Part shown: positions 756 through 34,119 of the stretch, piece after piece
Position numbering within the stretch: position 1 is the first letter of the stretch
Layout: each line of letters starts with the position of its first letter
IMG/VR virus record: IMGVR_UViG_3300002503_000012
Location: 5,680-45,640 of that record
Direction: 5' to 3' (one strand)
Source: a virus
Length of the DNA stretch: 39,961 nt
Notes under the pieces: generated by a model
Seen by the model: the letters and a program-made list of their open reading frames with translations, nothing else
Database searches by the model: none
What the model was told of the DNA's origin: nothing
Made by a program: the position numbers and the translations under genes

Positions 756-3512
756 GTGCCGATGGATACGCTTCTAAAGGGAACACGAGCATCGCAACAA
801 GTATGCTTGCGATTTGTTATCCGTGATCCGCTCGCGTTTCGCGAGTACTGGGTGCCCCAGGTCTCGAAGCTCCGGTACTGGGGACGGTATACCTTTGCGG
901 TGCCGATCGCGGCATTGGATGATGGTGATACGCTTGTGCGGGCCGGGAGGGCAGGCGGGAAGTCGTACGCAATAATCCAGCCAGAACTTGTCCGCCATGC
1001 AATGAATCATCCTGGAGAGGAAACACTCCTGACGTCCCTGCGTTTTCTGCATATTATGGATCGCATGGAGCGCGTGATTGACTATTTCAACTTGCCGTTT
1101 TTTAAGTTGTTCGTGAAGCGTATTATCCGGTCTCCGTATTCCATAGAACTCCGGACGGGGCATATCATTTACGGCCAAAGCGTTGGAGAAGATTACGATG
1201 CGCGCATGATTCAAGGCAAGCATGCATCGCTGCTCATCGTCGAAGAAGCGCAACAGTATCCCGAACGTGCCTGGATTAAGATACAGGGCGCGAAGGATCC
1301 TCGAGGATCGAGGACGCTCATGGTTGGTGTGCCTGATGGGCGACTGGATACGCCATTCCGAAAGGCAGATTCGATCATTCAAAGTTTTGCTGATCGACGT
1401 TTCGAGATTTCGAGACGTCACGATCCGTTCTTTGATCAACGAACGAAGCGCGATCTTGCGGACAATCTTGACGGGGAAGATTCCGACATGTTCATTCAGG
1501 AGATCGACGCGAAGTGGGGGCATCCCGTGTGGTCCGCGTGGGATCTGGATGCGATCTACAAGTGCCGGGAATCGGCGTTGAGTCCAGAGTTCTTCGTCAT
1601 ATCCGGTAAGTTATATAAGCAAGCCGGGTTGACGCCATCAGGTGCATGTGGAGATCTTCCGCCGTGTCCGTATGACGGGAGAGTTCGGCTGGCTATGGAC
1701 GTCGGGTACTCGCAGCCATCAGAGATACTCGCGTTTGTGTTCTGGGCCAGCCGGTGGCAGTTATTCACACGCGTGCGGCTTATCAATCGTATGGAGCACA
1801 CAGATCAGGCGGATATCCTGCATGAGATCGGGAGAAAGTATGGAGCGGATTACATTGGGATTGACACGACAGAGGGTGAAGGTCGTGCAATTGCGCAAGA
1901 CATGGAAAGCAAATACGGGTGGGGTGAACGTATTATTCGTGTCGCATTCACGGAAACTCTGCTTTCTGGATGGACGGCTGGGTCGGTGGACGCTGAGCCA
2001 GAAGAAGTCTGGGAACATGCGAAGTCCATCGGGACACGGACCTTGCGTACGATGTTTTCGAAGAGGAACATCGCGATCTCGCATGATGAAAGCATTCCGA
2101 CGGAATTCAATCGGGAGCGCGAGGTAAGGAACCAAGACGGGACAACACGTGTGATTACCCCCTTTGACGTGCATTGTGTTCGTCCAGATCAATGTGTAAC
2201 GACTCGGCGAGGTCATATTCCTATCGCCAATATTGTAGTTGGTGATGAGGTCCTGACGCATCGGGGGCGGTGGTGTCGAGTACGTACTGTCTTATCAAGG
2301 CCATATGAAGGCGAAATGATTGGATTGAGGGCTGGATGTAATAATCATGCGTGGGTAACGCCAGAACATCCAGTTCTTGTGCTGAGAAGAAAGAAAGACT
2401 GGTGGACATCTACGAAAACATGTCAGCGCCATTACAAGATTAATCGTAAGGCTAAGCTGGGTCAGCCTGAATGGATTGTAGCCGGTAATGTAGAAGCTGG
2501 TGATTTGATACAAATGGTAGCGGACCATACGAATTACGAGGATCGTGTACCTATACTGCAGATCCTTGATGAATTAGGTAAGCCTTATGGGCGTCAGTGT
2601 GTGTCGAGGCGCGAATATAGGACGAATGTTACACATGTAGTTCCTGCCAAGGTTGAAGTAGATGAGGACCTCGCATACGTTATGGGCTTGTATCTAGCAG
2701 AAGGTTCGGTAGAGCGACAACCGAATGGAAATATTCGTACCTTTTCTTTTGGTTTTCATCAAAAAGAAATTGCATATATTGAGTGTGTACAGCGTGTGAT
2801 GCGAGAGAAGTTTGGTCTTCCGTCATCAACTCGGAATGCACCAGGACTCGGTATGCAAGTTGACGTACATTCAGCTGCGGTAGGAGAAGCATTTGCGAGG
2901 GCCTTTGGTGTGCTGTCCGCCAATATAGGTCCACCTCGTTGGCTCCTTGAGGCTCCACGCCAAATAGTTGCGGCGTGGATTCGTGGATTATTCCAGGGTG
3001 ATGGATCTAGGTGCACTAGAAATAAAACACCATACTGGAGACTACATACGATCTCGCACAATATGGCTTTGTTAACTGTAGACGCACTGCGTAGTCTGGG
3101 ATTTCGGGCCATGGCTGGACTCTACGATAATAGTGTGCGTGGAAAATTCAATAGACAAGACGCGTGGACTCTCAATGTGTCAACTGATGTAGCGCCGTTC
3201 GATGATTTCATGCGCACTGGTGTTCTGCCACTTCCATGGACATGGAATGAGTGGACGGTTGTACGGCAACCTATTGCGAGACAGCGGTATTCAGGACTCG
3301 TGTATAACCTCGAAGTTGAACACGATGAAACATTCACGGTGAGTGGAATAACTGTTCATAATTGCACTGATGCCTTCCGTGTCTTTGCTGTCATGGAATT
3401 CCTGGAGACGCCCCTGATACCGCCCGATGCAACGGAAGGCGGTGTGTTTGTGGAGTTGGAACATGGGGATCGTCCAAGCCCATGGGCGCCGGTGACGGCG
3501 TATCCATTTTAG
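756..3512 (+). CDS. terL: terminase large subunit, interrupted by an intein
   Basis: DNA-packaging motor: an N-terminal ATPase that pumps DNA into the prohead and a C-terminal RNase H-like nuclease that cuts the concatemer. The precursor is 918 residues; removing the intein (474-869) leaves 522, a normal TerL length. The Walker A loop RAGRAGGKS is at 62-70 and Walker B LLIVEE at 159-164. Nuclease acidic residues lie in AMDVGYSQ (D315) and YIGIDTTEGEG (D370). The third acidic motif, TDAFR (D872), comes directly after the intein, so the insertion sits in the nuclease active site. The GTG at 756 begins the longest frame; an ATG at 762 is equally possible and neither has a strong ribosome site. 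The portal follows, as expected. Confidence 0.93.
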   Translation: MPMDTLLKGTRASQQVCLRFVIRDPLAFREYWVPQVSKLRYWGRYTFAVPIAALDDGDTLVRAGRAGGKSYAIIQPELVRHAMNHPGEETLLTSLRFLHIMDRMERVIDYFNLPFFKLFVKRIIRSPYSIELRTGHIIYGQSVGEDYDARMIQGKHASLLIVEEAQQYPERAWIKIQGAKDPRGSRTLMVGVPDGRLDTPFRKADSIIQSFADRRFEISRRHDPFFDQRTKRDLADNLDGEDSDMFIQEIDAKWGHPVWSAWDLDAIYKCRESALSPEFFVISGKLYKQAGLTPSGACGDLPPCPYDGRVRLAMDVGYSQPSEILAFVFWASRWQLFTRVRLINRMEHTDQADILHEIGRKYGADYIGIDTTEGEGRAIAQDMESKYGWGERIIRVAFTETLLSGWTAGSVDAEPEEVWEHAKSIGTRTLRTMFSKRNIAISHDESIPTEFNREREVRNQDGTTRVITPFDVHCVRPDQCVTTRRGHIPIANIVVGDEVLTHRGRWCRVRTVLSRPYEGEMIGLRAGCNNHAWVTPEHPVLVLRRKKDWWTSTKTCQRHYKINRKAKLGQPEWIVAGNVEAGDLIQMVADHTNYEDRVPILQILDELGKPYGRQCVSRREYRTNVTHVVPAKVEVDEDLAYVMGLYLAEGSVERQPNGNIRTFSFGFHQKEIAYIECVQRVMREKFGLPSSTRNAPGLGMQVDVHSAAVGEAFARAFGVLSANIGPPRWLLEAPRQIVAAWIRGLFQGDGSRCTRNKTPYWRLHTISHNMALLTVDALRSLGFRAMAGLYDNSVRGKFNRQDAWTLNVSTDVAPFDDFMRTGVLPLPWTWNEWTVVRQPIARQRYSGLVYNLEVEHDETFTVSGITVHNCTDAFRVFAVMEFLETPLIPPDATEGGVFVELEHGDRPSPWAPVTAYPF
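2175..3362 (+). other. intein with LAGLIDADG homing endonuclease inside terL
   Basis: A 396-residue protein-splicing element. It begins with Cys (precursor residue 474) in DVH|CVRPDQCV, whose pattern through GHIPIANIVVGDEVLT is intein block A. Block B is TPEHPVLV with the Thr and His of the TxxH motif. Two LAGLIDADG helices follow: AYVMGLYLAEGS and IRGLFQGDGS. Block F is VYNLEVEHDETFTV and the end is GITVHN|C, giving the His-Asn splice end and a Cys at +1. All splicing residues are present, so it should be active in splicing, and both endonuclease motifs keep an acidic residue. Ligated exteins would read ITPFDVH-CTDAFRVF. Its codons look more AT-rich than the surrounding terminase, in keeping with horizontal entry. 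Confidence 0.95.
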
Positions 3513-8170: not shown

Positions 8171-8845
8171 ATGCGCTTAGGCTCGCATCATACCGAAGAT
8201 TCTAAGGCTAAAATTGTAGCCGCTAATATTGGACGAGTTCCCAGTGCAGAAACACGCATGAAGATGTCGGCTGCTCACGCTGGGCAATGTCAGTTTAAGA
8301 CTATTACTACTTGTGATCTTGAATGGACTGCTGGGTTTTTAGAGGGAGAAGGCACATTCGATTTTTCTAACGGTAGCCAAAATGTAGGAAAACTGGCTAT
8401 AGCATGCGAGTAGGTGCGGTACAGGTACAGGCATGGCCCTTGTACAAACTAAAAGATATGTTTGGAGGCAGTATATCTTTTTATCCCTCTAAAACCGACG
8501 GCGGCAGGTTTATCTATGACGCTTTATTCACTTTTATCTCCTCAGCGCCGGGATCAGGTTTTGAAGAAGTTGACTCTCTGGAAATTGCGGCCTATGTCAC
8601 ATAAATTCCAAACGCATTGTTTCAATGGGCATTTATTATCTGGTGAAAATGTATCTGTGTATACGGGTATCAAGGGCAAGAGACGGACTTGCTTAACGTG
8701 TCAGAGAAAGTACCGCAAGGATAGGCAGTCAGATATGAATCGCCCAATTTGTAAAATGTCAGAATGCGGAATTCCGGTGTTCGTTAAAGATGTGTGTAAA
8801 AAACATTATCAGCGCTATAGGCGTTCGTTGGGAAAAAGGGCCTAG
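8171..8845 (+). pseudogene. broken LAGLIDADG homing endonuclease (NUMOD3 + LAGLIDADG + zinc knuckles)
   Basis: The first frame (8171-8413) carries a NUMOD3-like DNA-binding repeat (SKAKIVAANIGRVPSAETR) and then WTAGFLEGEGTFDF, a LAGLIDADG helix. It stops at a TAG at 8411. The homologous continuation (VGAVQVQAWPLYKLKDMFGG) is in the next frame from about 8404, and from about 8500 the original frame resumes with SMTLYSLLSPQRRDQV, the usual later part of this family. That needs a 1-base loss near 8400 and a 1-base gain near 8500. The end has Cys pairs (CFNGH, CLTCQ, CKMSECG, VCKKHY), typical zinc knuckles. Base composition is more AT-rich than the flanking genes. Either decayed or hit by two sequencing errors. 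Confidence 0.8.
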
Positions 8846-11382: not shown

Positions 11383-12263
11383 TTGATTCGGCGGTGCGAG
11401 ATCGGACGGCGTGCATGATGAGAGTGAGGAACGAAGAAAGATGGCTAAAAAGGTCACTTGAGCGGACTTACCAGGTGGCAAAGACCGTTGTGCTGTTTGA
11501 CGACGGATCTGAAGACAGAACTATACGTGAGGCGCTTGAGACCGTCCTGCCGAGTACGGATGTCATTGATCGCCTGCTGGCTGCGCCAGATCCCATTGCT
11601 GTGGCGTACAACGATCGGTGCTTGTATGTAATCCGTTCTCCGTTTCGGTACAATGTAGTGCGGCCACGAGAGTCAGTCAATGAAATCGTGGATAAGGTGA
11701 TACTCTGGCGGTTTGTTAAAGCGACCGTGGATTTTGACTACATACTCTGTCTTGATGGCGATGAAATTCTTACGCTGGCAGCCATTCGTAATTGGTCGTC
11801 GGCTATCGAACAGATGCGCTCGGGCATTGACATCTTGCACATTCCGTTCCTTTACGCTTGGGATGCAGAAGATCGACGTCGCGTGGACGGTATTTACGGG
11901 GACATCCCTGGTAGTTCGTTCGCGAAGTTGAATTTCCCGAGGCTCTTTACCATTCTTCGACTGAACGAACATTCTTTGTACAATTCTACCTTCCAGTGGC
12001 ATGGCACACAATGGAGTCTTCACGGAGGCAGTGTGCCTCGCCAGAACTTTCGACCTCTCGGGGCTGAGCCGACGTCTGGGAATGCCCACCTTCCTGTTTT
12101 ACACCTTGGATACGTGTCTGAAGAACTCCGGCAACGAAAGTTCATTTTTTATAATGCTCAGGATCCGGCCAACGACGCGGAAGGGCGGTACGAACATATT
12201 GTAGGAAGAAGTGATATTCATGCCCCTGGACCATTGGAATTTGTATCCTGGAGCGATACATGA
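11379..12263 (+). CDS. glycosyltransferase family 2-like
   Basis: 294 residues. MMRVRNEERWLKRSLE with TVVLFDDGSEDRT is the start of the GT2 subgroup whose N-terminus reads RNE-E; YILCLDGDEIL carries the D-G-D metal motif. A ring of aromatic residues near FQWHGTQWSLHGG and LPVLHLGYVS forms the rest of the acceptor site in this family. Overlaps neighbours on both sides by ATGA. The downstream neighbour is an inserted HNH endonuclease, with no disruption of this gene. Confidence 0.8.
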   Translation: MIDSAVRDRTACMMRVRNEERWLKRSLERTYQVAKTVVLFDDGSEDRTIREALETVLPSTDVIDRLLAAPDPIAVAYNDRCLYVIRSPFRYNVVRPRESVNEIVDKVILWRFVKATVDFDYILCLDGDEILTLAAIRNWSSAIEQMRSGIDILHIPFLYAWDAEDRRRVDGIYGDIPGSSFAKLNFPRLFTILRLNEHSLYNSTFQWHGTQWSLHGGSVPRQNFRPLGAEPTSGNAHLPVLHLGYVSEELRQRKFIFYNAQDPANDAEGRYEHIVGRSDIHAPGPLEFVSWSDT

Positions 12264-12784
12264 ACGCGAGAACACGCCGACCTATAATTATAAAAGACGG
12301 TATAGCGTATATAGATCTTGCCGGTAGAGACTGGGCACTTATTAACGAGGAAGATTTACCCTTAGTTAGTAATTGGCCGTGGCATAGGATTAGAGGAAAG
12401 TATACTTGGTACGCCGCAACAAATATTAGAGTGCCAAGTCGTCAACAAGAATACATGCACAGAATGATTCTTGGTACATCTGGGAACAAATATACCGACC
12501 ATATAAATGGTAATGGGCTTGATAACAGACTGATCAATTTAAGGGAATGTACTAATGGTCAGAATATGCGCAACGCTGAAAAGAGAAAACGTGGCAAAGT
12601 TTTATCTAGTAAATATAAAGGAGTATGTTGGTCTAAGAAATCTTCTTTATGGAGAGCAACGATTAAGGAGATGGGCATTCAAAGACATATTGGACTTTTT
12701 AAGTCCGAGGTGGAAGCCGCTAGGGCTTATGATTCAGCAGCAATAAAAGCATTTGGCGAATTCGCAAGGCCAAACTTCGCATGA
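12260..12784 (+). CDS. HNH homing endonuclease with AP2 DNA-binding domain
   Basis: 174 residues. The HNH_3-type nuclease core is YMHRMILG then DHINGNGLDNRLINLREC, where His and Asn of the motif are visible at about 69-105. The last 60 residues are an AP2/ERF-type domain: SSKYKGVCWSKKSSLWRAT and HIGLFKSEVEAARAYDSAA. Such HNH-AP2 proteins are free-standing homing endonucleases in phages. The gene joins both neighbours through ATGA overlaps (12260-12263 and 12781-12784), so it entered without breaking the operon. Its codons are visibly AT-rich compared with the glycosyltransferases on either side, a sign of recent transfer. Confidence 0.92.
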   Translation: MNARTRRPIIIKDGIAYIDLAGRDWALINEEDLPLVSNWPWHRIRGKYTWYAATNIRVPSRQQEYMHRMILGTSGNKYTDHINGNGLDNRLINLRECTNGQNMRNAEKRKRGKVLSSKYKGVCWSKKSSLWRATIKEMGIQRHIGLFKSEVEAARAYDSAAIKAFGEFARPNFA

Positions 12785-14906: not shown

Positions 14907-15082
14907 TCGTAACCTGTTCTTCGTGCCAGCTAGAATACGACGATTTATATACGCTCACCTATTGCCCACATTTGCCATTCCAAATGCATACGAAGGTCAC
15001 CGTTAACGGCATCCAGCGCTGCTGTCATAGCATCGAAGAACTGCGCGAAGCGATGCTGGACAAGACGCAGAGTGAACGATGA
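14903..15082 (+). CDS. 59-residue Cys-containing protein
   Basis: GTG 14903 overlaps the previous stop (GTGA) and the stop overlaps the next ATG (ATGA). Cys residues are at CSSCQLEY, YCPH and CCHS, which could bind one zinc. Very small, no family. Its exact tiling between genes is the main support. Confidence 0.45.
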   Translation: MIVTCSSCQLEYDDLYTLTYCPHLPFQMHTKVTVNGIQRCCHSIEELREAMLDKTQSER

Positions 15083-15714
15083 CGTTGGGTGCTGAGAAAA
15101 GAGCCACCAGGATTTGGGAAAAAACATGCCCAGCGTGTGGAGAATCTTTTGCTGTTGGCGGTGCATGTGGACCAATGAGAAAGAAAAAGTATTGTTCTGT
15201 GAGATGCGCGGGATTTTCCCCGTCCTTTTCTTCACCACGTGGGGCAATGCCGTTAGAGATGAAAAAGGAAGACGCTGCTTGGTTAGCAGGCCTGTTCGAT
15301 GGCGAAGGTTGCGTGATCATCTACAAAAGCTCAAGTAAGTATTCAGTCCGATATGCTATGAAGATAACATTGTCCAATACGAACTCAGAAGCACTTGTAA
15401 GATGTAGGGATATTTCCGGGGTTGGCAATGTTGTTCTTGGCAGGGCAGGAACATATAAAAGTAAGCCGAGTTATTACTGGGTCGCCGGCAGTGAGACCGC
15501 TGCTGCTATTCTTCGTCAGATACTACAGTATTCTTTTATAAAGAAACCGCAGGTAGAACTTGCCCTGAAGTTTCAAGAAAAAATGCTGACTGCGTCTTTG
15601 AGGGCTCAGCTTGGATGGCAATTAGAGATGAAAAATGAGCTGCATTTGTTGAATTATCGTGGACCTCGTATTATAACGCAGCGTCTTGGTCGCCCGAAGA
15701 CAGAGGCTGTGTAA
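15079..15714 (+). CDS. LAGLIDADG homing endonuclease with N-terminal zinc finger
   Basis: 211 residues. The N-terminus has CPACGESF (C17, C20) and KYCSVRCAG, a Cys4 zinc finger. At 69-78 is LAGLFDGEGC, one LAGLIDADG helix, so the enzyme is expected to act as a homodimer. The rest (ISGVGNVVLGR, YYWVAGSETAAAILRQI, KKPQVELALKF) is the standard saddle fold of this family. It fits between neighbours by ATGA and TAATG overlaps and is AT-rich compared with them. No intron core is visible around it, so it is a free-standing endonuclease. Confidence 0.9.
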   Translation: MTLGAEKRATRIWEKTCPACGESFAVGGACGPMRKKKYCSVRCAGFSPSFSSPRGAMPLEMKKEDAAWLAGLFDGEGCVIIYKSSSKYSVRYAMKITLSNTNSEALVRCRDISGVGNVVLGRAGTYKSKPSYYWVAGSETAAAILRQILQYSFIKKPQVELALKFQEKMLTASLRAQLGWQLEMKNELHLLNYRGPRIITQRLGRPKTEAV

Positions 15715-26010: not shown

Positions 26011-26079
26011 ATGCACGTGACATTCACACTTTCACGAGGAGGAGGGGCGCATGGCAACTGCACGCATGAAGAAGGGTAG
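26011..26079 (+). CDS. possible 22-residue leader overlapping the next gene
   Basis: An ATG at 26011 follows AGGAGG (26001-26006) and encodes MHVTFTLSRGGGAHGNC..., ending in a TAG at 26077, 29 bases inside the next gene. The next gene has its own strong GGAGGAGGGG (26037-26046). Two strong ribosome sites 36 bases apart suggest a leader that couples translation, but chance cannot be excluded. Confidence 0.3.
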   Translation: MHVTFTLSRGGGAHGNCTHEEG

Positions 26080-27172
26080 GCGCCCGCGGGGAGGAGTCAC
26101 GCACTCCTCGATTCATGTCCGCGGGTTCGCTCGGATTCAGATGGGGGAGAGGGTCGACGGTCACCTGAAGATTGTCGGTGATTCCGGGTGGCTGAAGAAC
26201 ACGATTACCAACGAGGGGCGCAATCTGTACATCGCGGCGCAGGTCGGCTCTGTCACCGGTTCCAAGCAGGTGAACGCGCTCCAGCTTGCGACGCAGCAAA
26301 CCGCTGTCGATGCCGCGTCCACGGCTCTTGTGGGTGAGACGCGCGTGCGGAAGACACTGCTGGCGTCCACCCTCGCAACGGGTACGTTGCGGATGACCGC
26401 GTCCTGGTCGTCTACGGACAATGCGGCGGCGATCACCATCGGGTCGATCGCTGTGTACAACACCACTACCGCTGGGGCGGGTACCATGGGATCGGGCCAA
26501 AGTTTCACAACTTTGACTGTAAAATCAACTACTTACAGAGCGCCTGCTCTTTATCTAGTTGGTTGCGGAGCCTTGGCTGCGTGAGCTACCAAGGGATGGC
26601 CGCTAATTCGGCGAACGCTGTGATGCCAACGCCGAGCGAAATGCCTGAGGCGATGAGGACGCGCTCGCAACACGTCTCAGGTATCTGTGTAGAGATCATA
26701 TACGGCCCTCTTCGGCGCGTGCAGACCGGAGATGAAGACATGATCCATGCCCTGGCGAATGATAAGTCAGGGAACCAGCCCGATAGCCCAGTAAATTTGA
26801 CGCACTGCGCAATGGGCGTCAAATCAAGATTTGTCGGCTACGTTACTCCTGCTGCAAAATCAACTAGTTATATCTCAGAATATGAGAGATCGGTTGATAG
26901 CAGCGTAAAGGGGTCGGCGCGTCATATTGGTGACGATATGACGGATGGTGGCGAACTCGGTGGACGCTGTGATGCCAATACCGAGCCAAGCGTTGGGTCA
27001 GGGGAGATCGCACTCGTTTGTACTGACTCAATGGCGTGTGTAGAGACTAGGTGCCACCCTCTCCCGTGCGGTAGTTTGGGAGATGAAGGTATAGTCCACT
27101 CCCCGGCGAACGATAAGTCGGGAGCCACGAGGACGAGTGGCGTTTCTAACGCATCGCGTTACAGTAGTTTGA
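26051..27172 (+). CDS. virion-type protein split by two group I introns
   Basis: Exon 1 (26051-26530) gives a basic N-terminus (MATARMKKGRRPRGG), then beta-rich text ending YNTTTAGAGTMGSGQSFTT and LTVKST. Without splicing it would run into a stray end at 26584. The last exon begins at 27143 with FLTHRVTVV and a TGA at 27170, in the same phase as exon 1, so direct joining gives 169 residues with a normal beta-strand end. Between the two introns a 37-base piece (26829-26865) may be a mini-exon; in the sensible frame it reads FVGYVTPAAKST, but that needs a junction one base away from the predicted one. Strong GGAGGAGGGG before the ATG. Probably a small head or tail decoration protein. Confidence 0.75.
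26531..26828 (+). ncRNA. group I intron 1 (subgroup IC3-like)
   Basis: A self-splicing ribozyme core can be folded by hand. P1: exon CAACT (26526-26530) with GGTTG (26561-26565), giving the U-G pair at the splice site. P2: CCTTGG/CCAAGG (26571-26576, 26589-26594). P3: GGCCG/CGGCC (26598, 26703). P4: CGGCG/CGCCG (26609, 26630). P6: CCTGAG/CTCAGG (26644, 26676). P7: GATCAT/ATGATC (26694, 26740). P8: CTTCGG/CCGGAG (26710, 26726). P9: CCCTG/CAGGG (26750, 26768). The layout resembles the Azoarcus tRNA-Ile intron. No ORF is inside. The 3' end (G26828) is predicted from a long hairpin at 26803-26824 and is the least certain point. Confidence 0.85.
26866..27142 (+). ncRNA. group I intron 2 (subgroup IC3-like)
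   Basis: P1: ATCAACT (26859-26865) with GGTTGAT (26892-26898), seven pairs including the U-G at the splice site. P2: CGTCATAT/ATATGACG (26920, 26936). P3: GGTGGC/GCCACC (26947, 27053). P4: CTCGGT/ACCGAG (26956, 26980). P6: ten pairs (26992-27001 with 27023-27032). P7: GACTA/TAGTC (27045, 27092). P8: CTCCC/GGGAG (27061, 27078). A last hairpin GCCAC/GTGGC (27124, 27137) is followed at once by G27142, the likely terminal G. The 3' exon TTTCT can pair with AGAGA upstream of the guide (P10). The motif GTGTAGAGACTAG is that of classic group I P7. No ORF inside. Confidence 0.9.
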
Positions 27173-27185
27173 GAGAGAATCAAGT

Positions 27186-28304
27186 GTGATTTGGACGAAG
27201 GAGATGGATGCACTACTGCTCGAGAAGTATCCGAGCGAAGGTGCCCGTCCGTGCTCGGTACTATTCGGCGTATCAATCGACGCCGTATGGCACCGAGCAC
27301 GGAAACTAGGCTGTCATGCGAGCAAGGAAGTGCAGAAGTCTGCCATCCGTAGATGGAAAGACGAGTACGACGACATTCTTCGGAAACGGTATGCAGTCGA
27401 CGGTCCACAAAGAATAGCAGCAGAACTCAAATTATCTAGGCAAACCGTAGAGAATCGGGCAGCGGCTCTTGGTCTTACAAAGGGACACTGGAGTCAGGAA
27501 TCGGATGCAGTAATTAAATCCGGTTATGCCGCAGATGGTGCTGCAGCCGTTGCTAAGGTTCTAGGGGTACCAATTTCTGCTGTGTACCACCGTGCCCGAC
27601 GACTTGGAATTAAATATGACTGGAAGACTCGTCGTGGACAGTCGCAGTGGCTTTCAGAAACAGTACGTGTAACCGCAGCTATCCGTGATGATTTAAAGTG
27701 TGGAATTTACGCTATTCGACATGGTGACAGTGGTCGGATGTATGTTGGTAGTGCTCTTGATATCTTTTCAAGATGGAAGGTACATCTAAGGGGTTTGCGT
27801 CAAGGTAAGCATCATTCTAGGGCATTACAAGCAATCTTCGATAAATATGGACCATCAGCATTCGTTTTTGAAGTTTTGGAAGAATGTGCTTCTGAACAGC
27901 TTTACGAGCGCGAACAGCAGTTCATGAATATTCATAAACCTGACTTAAATTCGGCTCCAAACGCGGGGAGTCCACGTGGCATTAAACGCACTGCTGAGCA
28001 ACGTGTTGCCCATACAAAGAGAATAAGAGCTATTTACGCTGATCCAATTAAGCGCAAACGCATTAGGGCAGCAAAGTCAGCGGCTATGCGTGAAAAGTGG
28101 AAGAACTCAGAATTTCGAGGCAGAATGTCGACGGCTTGGCGTACGCGTCCGTGGGATGGCGAGGAGGATAATTACCTTTTCAATCTCTCTGGGCATCTTC
28201 CTCTTAAAGAATTAGCCGTAGTTTTTGGCCGAACACCGTCGGCCGTCCAAAATCGTGTCCATTTCCTCGGTCTCAGTCTCCGCGCCAAAGGAGCGAGGGT
28301 GTGA
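27186..28304 (+). CDS. free-standing GIY-YIG homing endonuclease with Myb-like repeats
   Basis: 372 residues from GTG 27186, starting 14 bases after the stop of the intron-split gene. The N-terminal 150 residues are three Myb/SANT-like DNA-binding repeats (IWTKEMDALL, VWHRARKLG; IAAELKLSRQTVENRAAALG; VAKVLGVPISAVYHRARRLG). The nuclease domain follows: CGIYAIRHGDSGRMYVGSA, with R196, E241 and N255 in place. Then a NUMOD3-like basic part (KRTAEQRVAHTKRIR) and a fourth Myb-like repeat at the end. AT-rich relative to neighbours. Likely the homing partner of the adjacent introns. Confidence 0.93.
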   Translation: MIWTKEMDALLLEKYPSEGARPCSVLFGVSIDAVWHRARKLGCHASKEVQKSAIRRWKDEYDDILRKRYAVDGPQRIAAELKLSRQTVENRAAALGLTKGHWSQESDAVIKSGYAADGAAAVAKVLGVPISAVYHRARRLGIKYDWKTRRGQSQWLSETVRVTAAIRDDLKCGIYAIRHGDSGRMYVGSALDIFSRWKVHLRGLRQGKHHSRALQAIFDKYGPSAFVFEVLEECASEQLYEREQQFMNIHKPDLNSAPNAGSPRGIKRTAEQRVAHTKRIRAIYADPIKRKRIRAAKSAAMREKWKNSEFRGRMSTAWRTRPWDGEEDNYLFNLSGHLPLKELAVVFGRTPSAVQNRVHFLGLSLRAKGARV

Positions 28305-31441: not shown

Positions 31442-31983
31442 TGCCGCCTATTGCCCCGACACCATTGATGCGGTCACTGCCGAACATTATCGCGTCGATG
31501 TTCAGGTATTTATCCGATCTGCAGTATACGGTCGGTACCCGCACCGATACGCTCAAAGGATTCTTTCCGGGGCTCATTATCTTTCCAGCGTTCCCGGATG
31601 ACTTGACCGTACTGAAATCTCCCGTGCTCGCGCTGGGCAGTACGGAATATACGTCCCCTGGATTCGATCGATTCGGGTCCGTGGGATTCGACGCCGTGTA
31701 TCGGTTGCCGCTGTGGGGATTTGTGTGTGGGCAGGGCGGCGATCAGAAGAACAAGGCCTATCGGGATCGGCTCATGAGCGATCTGATCGAGATCTTTTCT
31801 GGTACGGCGGCCAATGAGGGCATCGATCTTTATGATTCGGAAACGCGGCAAGTTATTTCCACCGTGGAAGTGGTCGGGTGCATGGCGCGAGAAGTGCCGA
31901 CGAATGCGCCGACGATCGATGCAGATCGCTTTAGATTTCTTTGTGAGGTGGATGTTTCTATAGACGCTGGGTGGACATCATGA
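31441..31983 (+). CDS. tail terminator-like protein
   Basis: 180 residues, starting at a TAATG junction, between the connector genes and the tail tube. MPPIAPTPLMRSLPNIIASMF, YRLPLWGFVCGQGG and AYRDRLMSDLIEIFSG fit a tail terminator (the ring that caps the tail tube) by position and size. Ends normally (SIDAGWTS). The stop overlaps the start of the endonuclease. Confidence 0.6.
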   Translation: MPPIAPTPLMRSLPNIIASMFRYLSDLQYTVGTRTDTLKGFFPGLIIFPAFPDDLTVLKSPVLALGSTEYTSPGFDRFGSVGFDAVYRLPLWGFVCGQGGDQKNKAYRDRLMSDLIEIFSGTAANEGIDLYDSETRQVISTVEVVGCMAREVPTNAPTIDADRFRFLCEVDVSIDAGWTS

Positions 31984-33050
31984 CTATGGTCGATATTATC
32001 TGGCTCGCAGGTATTATTGAAGGCGAGGGATGTTTTAGTGATGTTTATCCAATTATTCAATTACAGATGACTGATAAAGATGTTGTCGAACGCGTAGCCA
32101 GTTTATTTGATAGACCACTAAGAGCATGGCAATCTAAAACTACAGGTCTTAAGCGTGTATACATTTGTAACGTGTCTGGGACTGACGCTATTTCTTGGAT
32201 GATGACGTTGTACTCTGAAATGGGCACGCGTAGAAGGGGACAGATTAAGGAAGCTATAAACAAATGGAAAGCGTCCTCTCGAATTCCTCGAGGAGCAAAT
32301 GGACGCAGGCTACCGGCTATCTGTCATCCTGATAGGTTACGTAAGGCTCACGGATTGTGTCCATCTTGTAGTGTAAAGAACTATAGATCGCGTGGTAACA
32401 CTATGTCTGGAGATAGAATAAAACCAAGTGACTTACATCTACGCGTGAACGCGAAAATCCAAAATACGCATTCCATTGATATCGCGAGAACGCGACCTGA
32501 CTTAGGGGATATTACACCCATAGCTAAGGATATTTCTTGGCTTGCTGGCGTTCTTGAAGGCGAAGGATCATTCCTTAAAGCGAACAGGCAGCCTGTAATT
32601 TCGTTAGCAATGGCAGACCGTGATGTTATAGAACATGCTGCGCGTTTGTGGAATAGAGCTGCTAATACATGGCACCGCAAGGGTTCAACCTGTAAAGGTT
32701 CAAATTACAAACCCATACATTTCTGTCGTGTTACCGGCGTTGCTGCCATTTCTTGGATGATGACCTTGTATTCTAGTATGGGTATTCGTAGGAAACAACG
32801 AATCAAAAGTCTTATAGAGGAATGGCGAGCTTCTTCAAATATGCCCAAGAGCTCAAGGGGTTATCGTTTCCCTGCTATCTGTCACTCGGATAGAGTACGT
32901 CATGGACGTGGTCTTTGTCGTGCGTGTTATTGGAAAATTCACGGCAGTCCCAAAAGAAATACGAGCAAGCGATGCATGAACGATTCAACGTACAGCAATC
33001 TAACAAACACGAACGATGTACGACAAAACGAAGTTGAAGTAACGTCTTAA
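31980..33050 (+). CDS. tandem-duplicated LAGLIDADG homing endonuclease with zinc knuckles
   Basis: 356 residues from ATG 31980 (ATGA overlap). The protein is two copies of one unit: LAGIIEGEG (9-17), ISWMMTLYSEMGTRRR (72-87), CHPDRLRKAHGLCPSC (115-130), then LAGVLEGEGS (188-197), ISWMMTLYSSMGIRRK (258-273) and CHSDRVRHGRGLCRAC (301-316). Each has a LAGLIDADG helix and a Cys/His zinc knuckle. Two DNA segments of 17 bases (32190-32206 and 32748-32764) are identical. A monomeric enzyme with two active sites is expected. It lies immediately before the exon 1 of the intron-split tail tube gene. AT-rich. Confidence 0.93.
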   Translation: MTMVDIIWLAGIIEGEGCFSDVYPIIQLQMTDKDVVERVASLFDRPLRAWQSKTTGLKRVYICNVSGTDAISWMMTLYSEMGTRRRGQIKEAINKWKASSRIPRGANGRRLPAICHPDRLRKAHGLCPSCSVKNYRSRGNTMSGDRIKPSDLHLRVNAKIQNTHSIDIARTRPDLGDITPIAKDISWLAGVLEGEGSFLKANRQPVISLAMADRDVIEHAARLWNRAANTWHRKGSTCKGSNYKPIHFCRVTGVAAISWMMTLYSSMGIRRKQRIKSLIEEWRASSNMPKSSRGYRFPAICHSDRVRHGRGLCRACYWKIHGSPKRNTSKRCMNDSTYSNLTNTNDVRQNEVEVTS

Positions 33051-33085: not shown

Positions 33086-34119
33086 ATGGCTCAGGAGGCA
33101 AAGCGTTACAGGCGCCGCAAGAAGGAAGACGTCAGCCCACGGGCTCAGGCGCACTAAGCGAGTGATCGCTTACGTGAATCACGGCGAAGTCGGGGAACGC
33201 CCAGCCGGTCACCCGCCGGCGGCCAATCCCGAGCCAAGCGTTGCGAAGAGGGAGAACGCACTCCGCGGTACTCTCGCAATGGCGTGTGTAGAGACTGGGT
33301 GCCGTGCGCTCCGGTGCGTTATCGGAGATGAAGGGACAGTCCGCGCCTCTGCGGAAGCAGAGGATTACGCGCTTCATCGATGGGTACTTTGTAGACAATG
33401 CCAACGTTGCAACGCCAGATGTGAACAAGACAGACGAAACCTTCCACGTATTCGGCAAGGATTCGCCCGAGTCCGATGTGCTGAACAACTACGGCACACT
33501 GACCCTGGGCCTGCTCGACAAGTACACGTCCAACGCCATCCTCGATCTGATCACGGGTCAGGATCCTGGAGACACGGCACCGCATCGCTATCAGGCCGAC
33601 GACCTTGGCACGGTGCACGTGTGGGCGAATATCAAGGATGCCAAGAATACGCAGTACCTCAAGTCGTGGTTCCTTGGCGGGTGGGCACCTGGTCTGCCAA
33701 TGCCGTCAGGCAATCCGGAAGCCAAGGCTGCGGTGTCGATTGTCGGCAACGGACATTTGCCAGAACAGTATCAGGGCTGCTTCGTCATGATGAAGAAGGT
33801 GTCTTCAGGCGCAGCGGTATCCATGGGCGTCACGCCGATCCCGGTGCCCACAGGATCGCTGTCCGGCAATCCGCCGGAGAAGTACGCGATTTCCGTCAAG
33901 GCGATCAACGATACGACTGCATCGCCGGGCGGCAAGTTCGATCAGGAAGAGGTTACAGTGACGGCGGCGATGGTCACCTCGGCAGGGACCGTGGTATTTT
34001 CCGAGATCATGTCGCAAACGACACTGCCGGCCGTGACGCATGCGGCGGTGTACTACCTGTCGAGCGGGACCGGTGTGTACCCGACGGCGAGTGCTAAGCC
34101 GGATAAGCTGCGGACGTAA
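33086..34119 (+). CDS. tail tube protein gene, split by a group I intron
   Basis: Exon 1 begins at ATG 33086 with AGGGGA nearby and reads MAQEAKR..., a basic start; read through, the frame stops at a TAA at 33155. The second exon resumes at about 33370 and reads RFIDGYFVDNANVATPDVN and HVFGKDSPESDVLNNYGTL, ending at 34119. Joining T33106 to C33370 gives an intact frame of 256 residues (MAQEAKR-RFIDGYF). The protein is beta-rich (KYAISVKAINDTTASPG), right before the tail chaperone, where the tail tube gene belongs. Exact 5' splice site not settled: T33091 and T33145 are also in phase. Confidence 0.75.
33107..33369 (+). ncRNA. group I intron 3 (IC3-like), in the tail tube gene
   Basis: P2: TAAGCGA/TCGCTTA (33155-33161, 33166-33172) closed by a GTGA loop. 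P3: CACGGC/GCCGTG (33180, 33301). P4: TCGGGGA/TCCCGA (33190, 33227). P6: GTTGCGA/TCGCAAT (33240, 33274). P7: GACTG/CAGTC (33293, 33337). P8: CTCCG/CGGAG (33309, 33323). P9: CCTCTGC/GCAGAGG with a GGAA tetraloop (33346-33363). GTGTAGAGACTGG is the classic P7 5' side. No ORF inside. The 3' end at G33369 keeps the frame. The 5' boundary is the weak point: GCGU/GCGC pairing at 33103 and 33149 is my best, four-pair guess. Confidence 0.85.

Follow-up and report, generated by a model that had tools for sequence, protein, structure and literature searches.

The window analysed here, a stretch of 39,961 nucleotides, comes from a viral record of 45.6 kb, and its sequence at the locus described below is found again in a second contig of this virus, 11.3 kb long. 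This locus consists of a gene at 26051-27149, which belongs to a structural cluster and is located between capsid and tail genes, and of an endonuclease gene that follows it. The predicted parts of both are given below, one per line.

26051..26513, plus strand: exon 1, 154 codons and the first base of a Ser codon, with the end ...CACAACTT
26514..26807, plus strand: group I intron 1, 294 nt with a terminal G, core at 26589-26773 by the covariance model R1
26521..26530, plus strand: copy 1 of AAAATCAACT, inside intron 1, 8 nt past the 5' splice site, in the hairpin that separates this site from the guide
26808..26843, plus strand: exon 2 (mini-exon), 36 nt or 12 codons, CGCAATGGGCGTCAAATCAAGATTTGTCGGCTACGT, coding for (S)QWASNQDLSAT(Y)
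26844..27132, plus strand: group I intron 2, 289 nt with a terminal G, core at 26938-27124 by R1 (of which it is a training member), with covariation
26856..26865, plus strand: copy 2 of AAAATCAACT, inside intron 2, 13 nt past the 5' splice site, in the P1 region
27133..27149, plus strand: exon 3, ACGAGTGGCGTTTCTAA, coding for (Y)EWRF and the stop, from blind spliced alignment; the L015 homolog terminates in TACGAATGGCGTTTCTAG
27186..28304, plus strand: GIY-YIG homing endonuclease gene with HTH domains (PF01541, E=4.5e-9), directly downstream of the split gene

A 208-codon open frame at 26563-27189 runs through both introns; the gene is read in another frame, and this one seems incidental. An imperfect inverted repeat (58 aligned columns, 79% identity) occupies 27248-27303, close to where the GIY-YIG gene begins.

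The protein encoded by the split gene has no significant family match. DNA and protein searches found no recognisable homolog of the gene among the isolated phages of the collection, and a single-sequence search of the viral contigs returned just another contig of the same virus. Relatives were reached by an alignment of capsid proteins, which led to L015/L016 with a capsid protein 57% identical to that of the window. Their homolog of the split gene is uninterrupted, has the C-terminal end ...GSGQTFTTSQWNSNQDLSATYEWRF followed by the stop, and is 70% identical to exon 1 over 146 aa. Further relatives of the split gene are found in L098/L099 (59% identity) and L100 (35%). For the L100 homolog there is a match to a tail fibre PHROG (E = 3.9e-6), and the AlphaFold model of the L015 homolog (mean pLDDT 49) is too poor for use.

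The exon boundaries were obtained by a spliced alignment of the window DNA with the last 26 codons of the homolog (stop included), in which up to two introns were permitted anywhere and to which no splice-signal or group I rule was supplied. The top path with L015 is 26513^26808 and 26843^27133, and the same path is found with L099. With L100 as reference the first three of the four junction positions are recovered. The score with L015 is 129 of a possible 141, and shuffled downstream sequence (n=300) gives 67.2 ± 5.2 with a maximum of 85, which places the observed value at z = 11.8. The joined tail, ...GSGQSFTTSQWASNQDLSATYEWRF and stop, agrees with L015 in 24 of its 26 positions. Nucleotide differences between exons 2 and 3 and their L015 counterpart fall on the three codon positions 4, 3 and 13 times, hence mostly on the third. 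Exon 2 corresponds to SQWNSNQDLSATY in L015 and to SQWATNQDVSMTY in L099; its residues are conserved in both and lined up in L100, and its end, ...GGCTACGT, is a second real 5' exon end. The L099 product had also been read as QDVNFTYEWRFS, which was dropped as the guide rule described below and the length match favour QDVSMTYEWRFS. The blind alignment with L099 used the QDVNFTYEWRFS reading, and the window junctions are unchanged by this.

It is thus very probable from sequence comparison that two ORF-less group I introns, members of one family with insertion sites 36 nt apart, interrupt the gene close to its 3' end, and that both would be excised and the exons joined. The three exons together would encode a protein of 171 aa with the C-terminal end SFTTSQWASNQDLSATYEWRF.

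The window contains a third related intron.

33133..33371, plus strand: intron 3, a related group I intron and R1 training member, core at 33171-33361, CGT/GCG guide
33086-33132 and 33372-34119: exons 1 and 2 of a probable tail tube gene, the host of intron 3

The joined product of this host gene can be aligned with the tail tube protein of L015, whose gene is uninterrupted, and this sets the boundaries of intron 3. Just upstream of the host gene there is a LAGLIDADG endonuclease gene (31971-33050). R1 was built solely from introns 2 and 3; intron 1 was left out of it and is nevertheless detected with 106 bits (E = 2.8e-27). A scan of the whole record with R1 revealed no fourth intron. With the Rfam model RF00028 intron 2 gives a weak match (23.1 bits, E = 0.0016) and intron 3 a similar one (22.8 bits, E = 0.00079); intron 1 gives none, and no window intron reaches the gathering score of 50 bits. 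This shortfall is a sensitivity limit of one broad model and not a defining structural feature.

Covariation was counted in five introns of the family, which are the three of the window, one in L099 and one in L104. In P3, P4, P7 and P8, 96.5% of 115 cells hold standard pairs, and changes on both sides occur in 13 of 23 pairs; none of 500 shuffles comes as high (0/500). P6 is visible by eye and was left out of the pair counts. The L104 intron (L104:4829-5024, also in L101; 55 bits, E = 1.3e-13) is a more distant member of the family, which interrupts a different gene in another phage contig. Aligned over 268 positions, introns 1 and 2 agree at 59% of them, and intron 1 is the most diverged among the three window introns. 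Core identities are 72% for introns 2 and 3, 68% for intron 2 and the L099 intron, 61% for introns 1 and 2, and 56% for introns 1 and 3. A recent local duplication as source of the intron pair is unsupported by these values, with 72% for introns 2 and 3 against 61% for introns 1 and 2. An earlier note on this DNA had proposed that one gene holds a tandem of two related group I introns and that a very short exon may be kept between them; the R1 detection, the covariation in P3, P4, P7 and P8 and the 36 nt found by the blind alignment bear out both proposals.

Each intron would fold around its own core, define its own 5' splice site via a short P1, and remove itself by two guanosine-dependent transesterifications. 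The guide of intron 1 is GAG (26568..26570, plus strand), directly 5' of P2 (26571), and pairs with CTT at 26511-26513; that of intron 2 is GCG (26917..26919, plus strand), directly 5' of P2 (26920), and pairs with CGT at 26841-26843. Both have a U.G pair at the splice site. Introns 1, 2 and 3 all have a guide triplet immediately 5' of P2, which pairs with the three terminal bases of the preceding exon and forms U.G at the cleavage site; the same is true of the intron in L099, where the junctions were partly picked to satisfy this rule. CGT/GCG is common to intron 2, intron 3 and L099, and CTT/GAG is found in intron 1; the middle pair of P1 in intron 1 therefore differs from that of the others in both of its bases. 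With the junctions derived from homology, all three window introns (3/3) have a U before the 5' splice site and a G as last base. The exon side of P1 comprises merely 3 bp in each intron. In intron 1, 26562-26567 can form a P10 of 6 bp with the first bases of exon 2 (26808-26813); the P10 of intron 2 is poor.

Longer P1 pairings can be drawn, CAACT/GGTTG in intron 1 and TGTCGGCT/GGTCGGCG in intron 2, which would shift the junctions by 1-4 nt. If these 5 bp and 8 bp were decisive (the region of the latter has a fold z-score of -5.3), the junctions would be 26512^26810 and 26839^27132 and the protein would be two residues shorter (...SFTTQWASNQDLSADEWRF). These junctions, however, drop a Ser codon and a Thr-Tyr pair, of which the Tyr is present in all three relatives, and they do away with the 6-bp P10 of intron 1 and with the position of the guide next to P2 that four introns share. 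We rate the longer pairings lower because conserved residues are lost and the common guide pattern is broken, and regard the resulting junctions as improbable. Even less is to be said for the idea that the introns are dead remnants and that an unspliced protein of 177 aa is made, with the end LTVKSTTYRAPALYLVGCGALAA and a stop at 26584. The unspliced frame does stay open for 17 codons beyond 26530, and it is intron 1 that shows the greatest divergence among the window introns; the core helices, however, are kept intact by compensatory changes, and exons 2 and 3 are conserved past that stop, which makes this reading very improbable.

The model of the earlier note, to which we give hardly any credence, let both introns follow AAAATCAACT, so that they spanned 26531-27142, and joined 26530 to 27143 in a product of 169 codons or kept a mini-exon of 37 nt at 26829-26865. 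It was built on real letters: AAAATCAACT does occur at 26521-26530 and 26856-26865, the copies form part of a 17/19-nt repeat, and GGTTGAT at 26892-26898 has a 7-base pairing with the copy of intron 2 and can pair likewise with copy 1, the seven letters being identical. Both copies are intronic, each within the hairpin that precedes the guide, and hence no exon ends, and the proposal that one guide reads both splice sites fails for this reason and because GCG mismatches the exon-1 end CTT. Every splice site of the model is misplaced when compared with the blind alignment, the real exon 2 being 26808-26843 and the real exon 3 27133-27149. Its introns would contain the conserved codons for SQWASNQ and EWR, and its tail products, that of direct joining included, score 11 against the homolog tail, in comparison to 128 for the corrected product. 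By sequence arithmetic, given a 3'-terminal G, no mini-exon on the 26530 site preserves the frame of the last exon from 27143. The likeness of TTTGTCGG and TTTCTAAC, which had been taken for two related exon starts, is meaningless, as the interior of exon 2 is compared with the end of exon 3. The two AAAATCAACT copies are most simply alike from the relatedness of introns 1 and 2. The 5' sites 26530 and 26525 were also combined with several 3' ends, among them one that gives an in-frame ...VKFGYVTPAAKSTFLTHRVTVV product; these candidates are ruled out by the homologs.

In the preferred reading of three exons and two introns the transcript is predicted to be spliced in cells, with inclusion of exon 2 as the dominant outcome; inclusion is expected because exon 2 is conserved coding sequence. 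Regular skipping of this exon is the alternative to which we would give most room, and it appears unlikely as well. By 26513^27133, which is in frame, 26514-27132 would be taken out as one unit and a protein of 159 aa with the end SFTTYEWRF would be made. With 36 nt, or 12 codons, exon 2 has a length by which the frame is kept on skipping, and Twort orf142 and one SIOphi gene are precedents. Against this, skipping would cost the protein a segment of 12 residues, which is conserved in L015 as well as L099 and has an aligned counterpart in L100, and the intron 2 guide GCG fits the exon-1 end CTT poorly (T.G pairs, T-C is a mismatch, C-G pairs). Pairing of a downstream guide with an upstream 5' splice site is one possible route to skipping and is not required for it. 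Somewhat more doubtful still is the combined proposal that alternative group I splicing yields both the 171-aa and the 159-aa form and that the 3' end of the gene is at the same time an intron hot spot aided by the GIY-YIG enzyme, with three insertion sites in a span of 36 nt, counted over two phages.

The same gene in L099 (IMGVR_UViG_3300011443_000720) is split as well.

L099:6458-6690: intron in the same gene, 116 bits, E = 6.8e-30, after ACGT

It is a single intron of the family found in the window with the same CGT/GCG guide, but its insertion site lies 11 nt 5' of the one that intron 2 occupies. After the split gene L099 encodes, at the same place, a homolog of the GIY-YIG protein (44% identity over 120 aa), for which no match was found in the L015 and L100 loci, both of which are intronless. 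A free-standing endonuclease gene is thus located beside an ORF-less intron in the window (27186-28304) as well as in L099, which suggests that the 3' end of the gene may be a shared homing hot spot. The free-standing GIY-YIG endonuclease encoded next door, which would cut intronless sites, probably helped the introns to spread (collaborative homing). In both phages the insertion sites of this intron family are packed into the final codons of the gene. Collaborative or trans homing, in which a free-standing endonuclease targets an intron site, is described for cyanophage psbA in a review (PMC3984707). As in that system, ORF-less introns adjoin a free-standing endonuclease gene in two phages; here the likeness concerns the genes alone.

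The gene for the large terminase subunit (756-3512) contains a probable in-frame intein, with Hint_2 and Intein_splicing below and LAGLIDADG_3 above the cut-off. Homing endonuclease genes or fragments (NUMOD3, HNH + AP2, LAGLIDADG) are found at 8171-8413, 12260-12784 and 15079-15714, among glycosyltransferase-like and methyltransferase-like genes.

Pairs of group I introns that enclose a short exon are an already known kind of arrangement. According to PMC10136302, orf142 of phage Twort has similar tandem group I introns with an exon of 23 nt and exon skipping, and PMC11878797 states that orf142 was later identified as a tail tube gene. Its existence contradicts the remark of the earlier note that the arrangement had not been seen described for a phage virion gene. 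The similarity to orf142 (Landthaler and Shub 1999) drawn here concerns the arrangement, two introns in tandem with a short exon in the middle (23 nt in Twort, 36 nt in the window). In Twort splicing and skipping were shown on RNA, whereas the window introns are known from sequence alone, and the host gene in the window is not an evident tail tube gene. Two group I introns also flank a small exon in SIOphi and phiNIT1 (Bastillevirinae), with exon skipping in a SIOphi gene (PMC11878797); the hosts there are nucleotide-metabolism or terminase genes, in contrast to the structural-cluster gene of the window.

What makes this locus of interest is the corrected anatomy, the conserved mini-exon and the possible homing hot spot. 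The strong hairpin inside the intron, which mimics P1, illustrates that group I splice sites are easily misread from the DNA letters. The window offers a natural intron pair around a real 36-nt exon, together with intronless and single-intron relatives for comparison. Such a pair is suited to ask if introns as close as these splice independently or skip the exon between them, and if introns keep entering one end of a gene through the action of a free-standing endonuclease encoded next to it.
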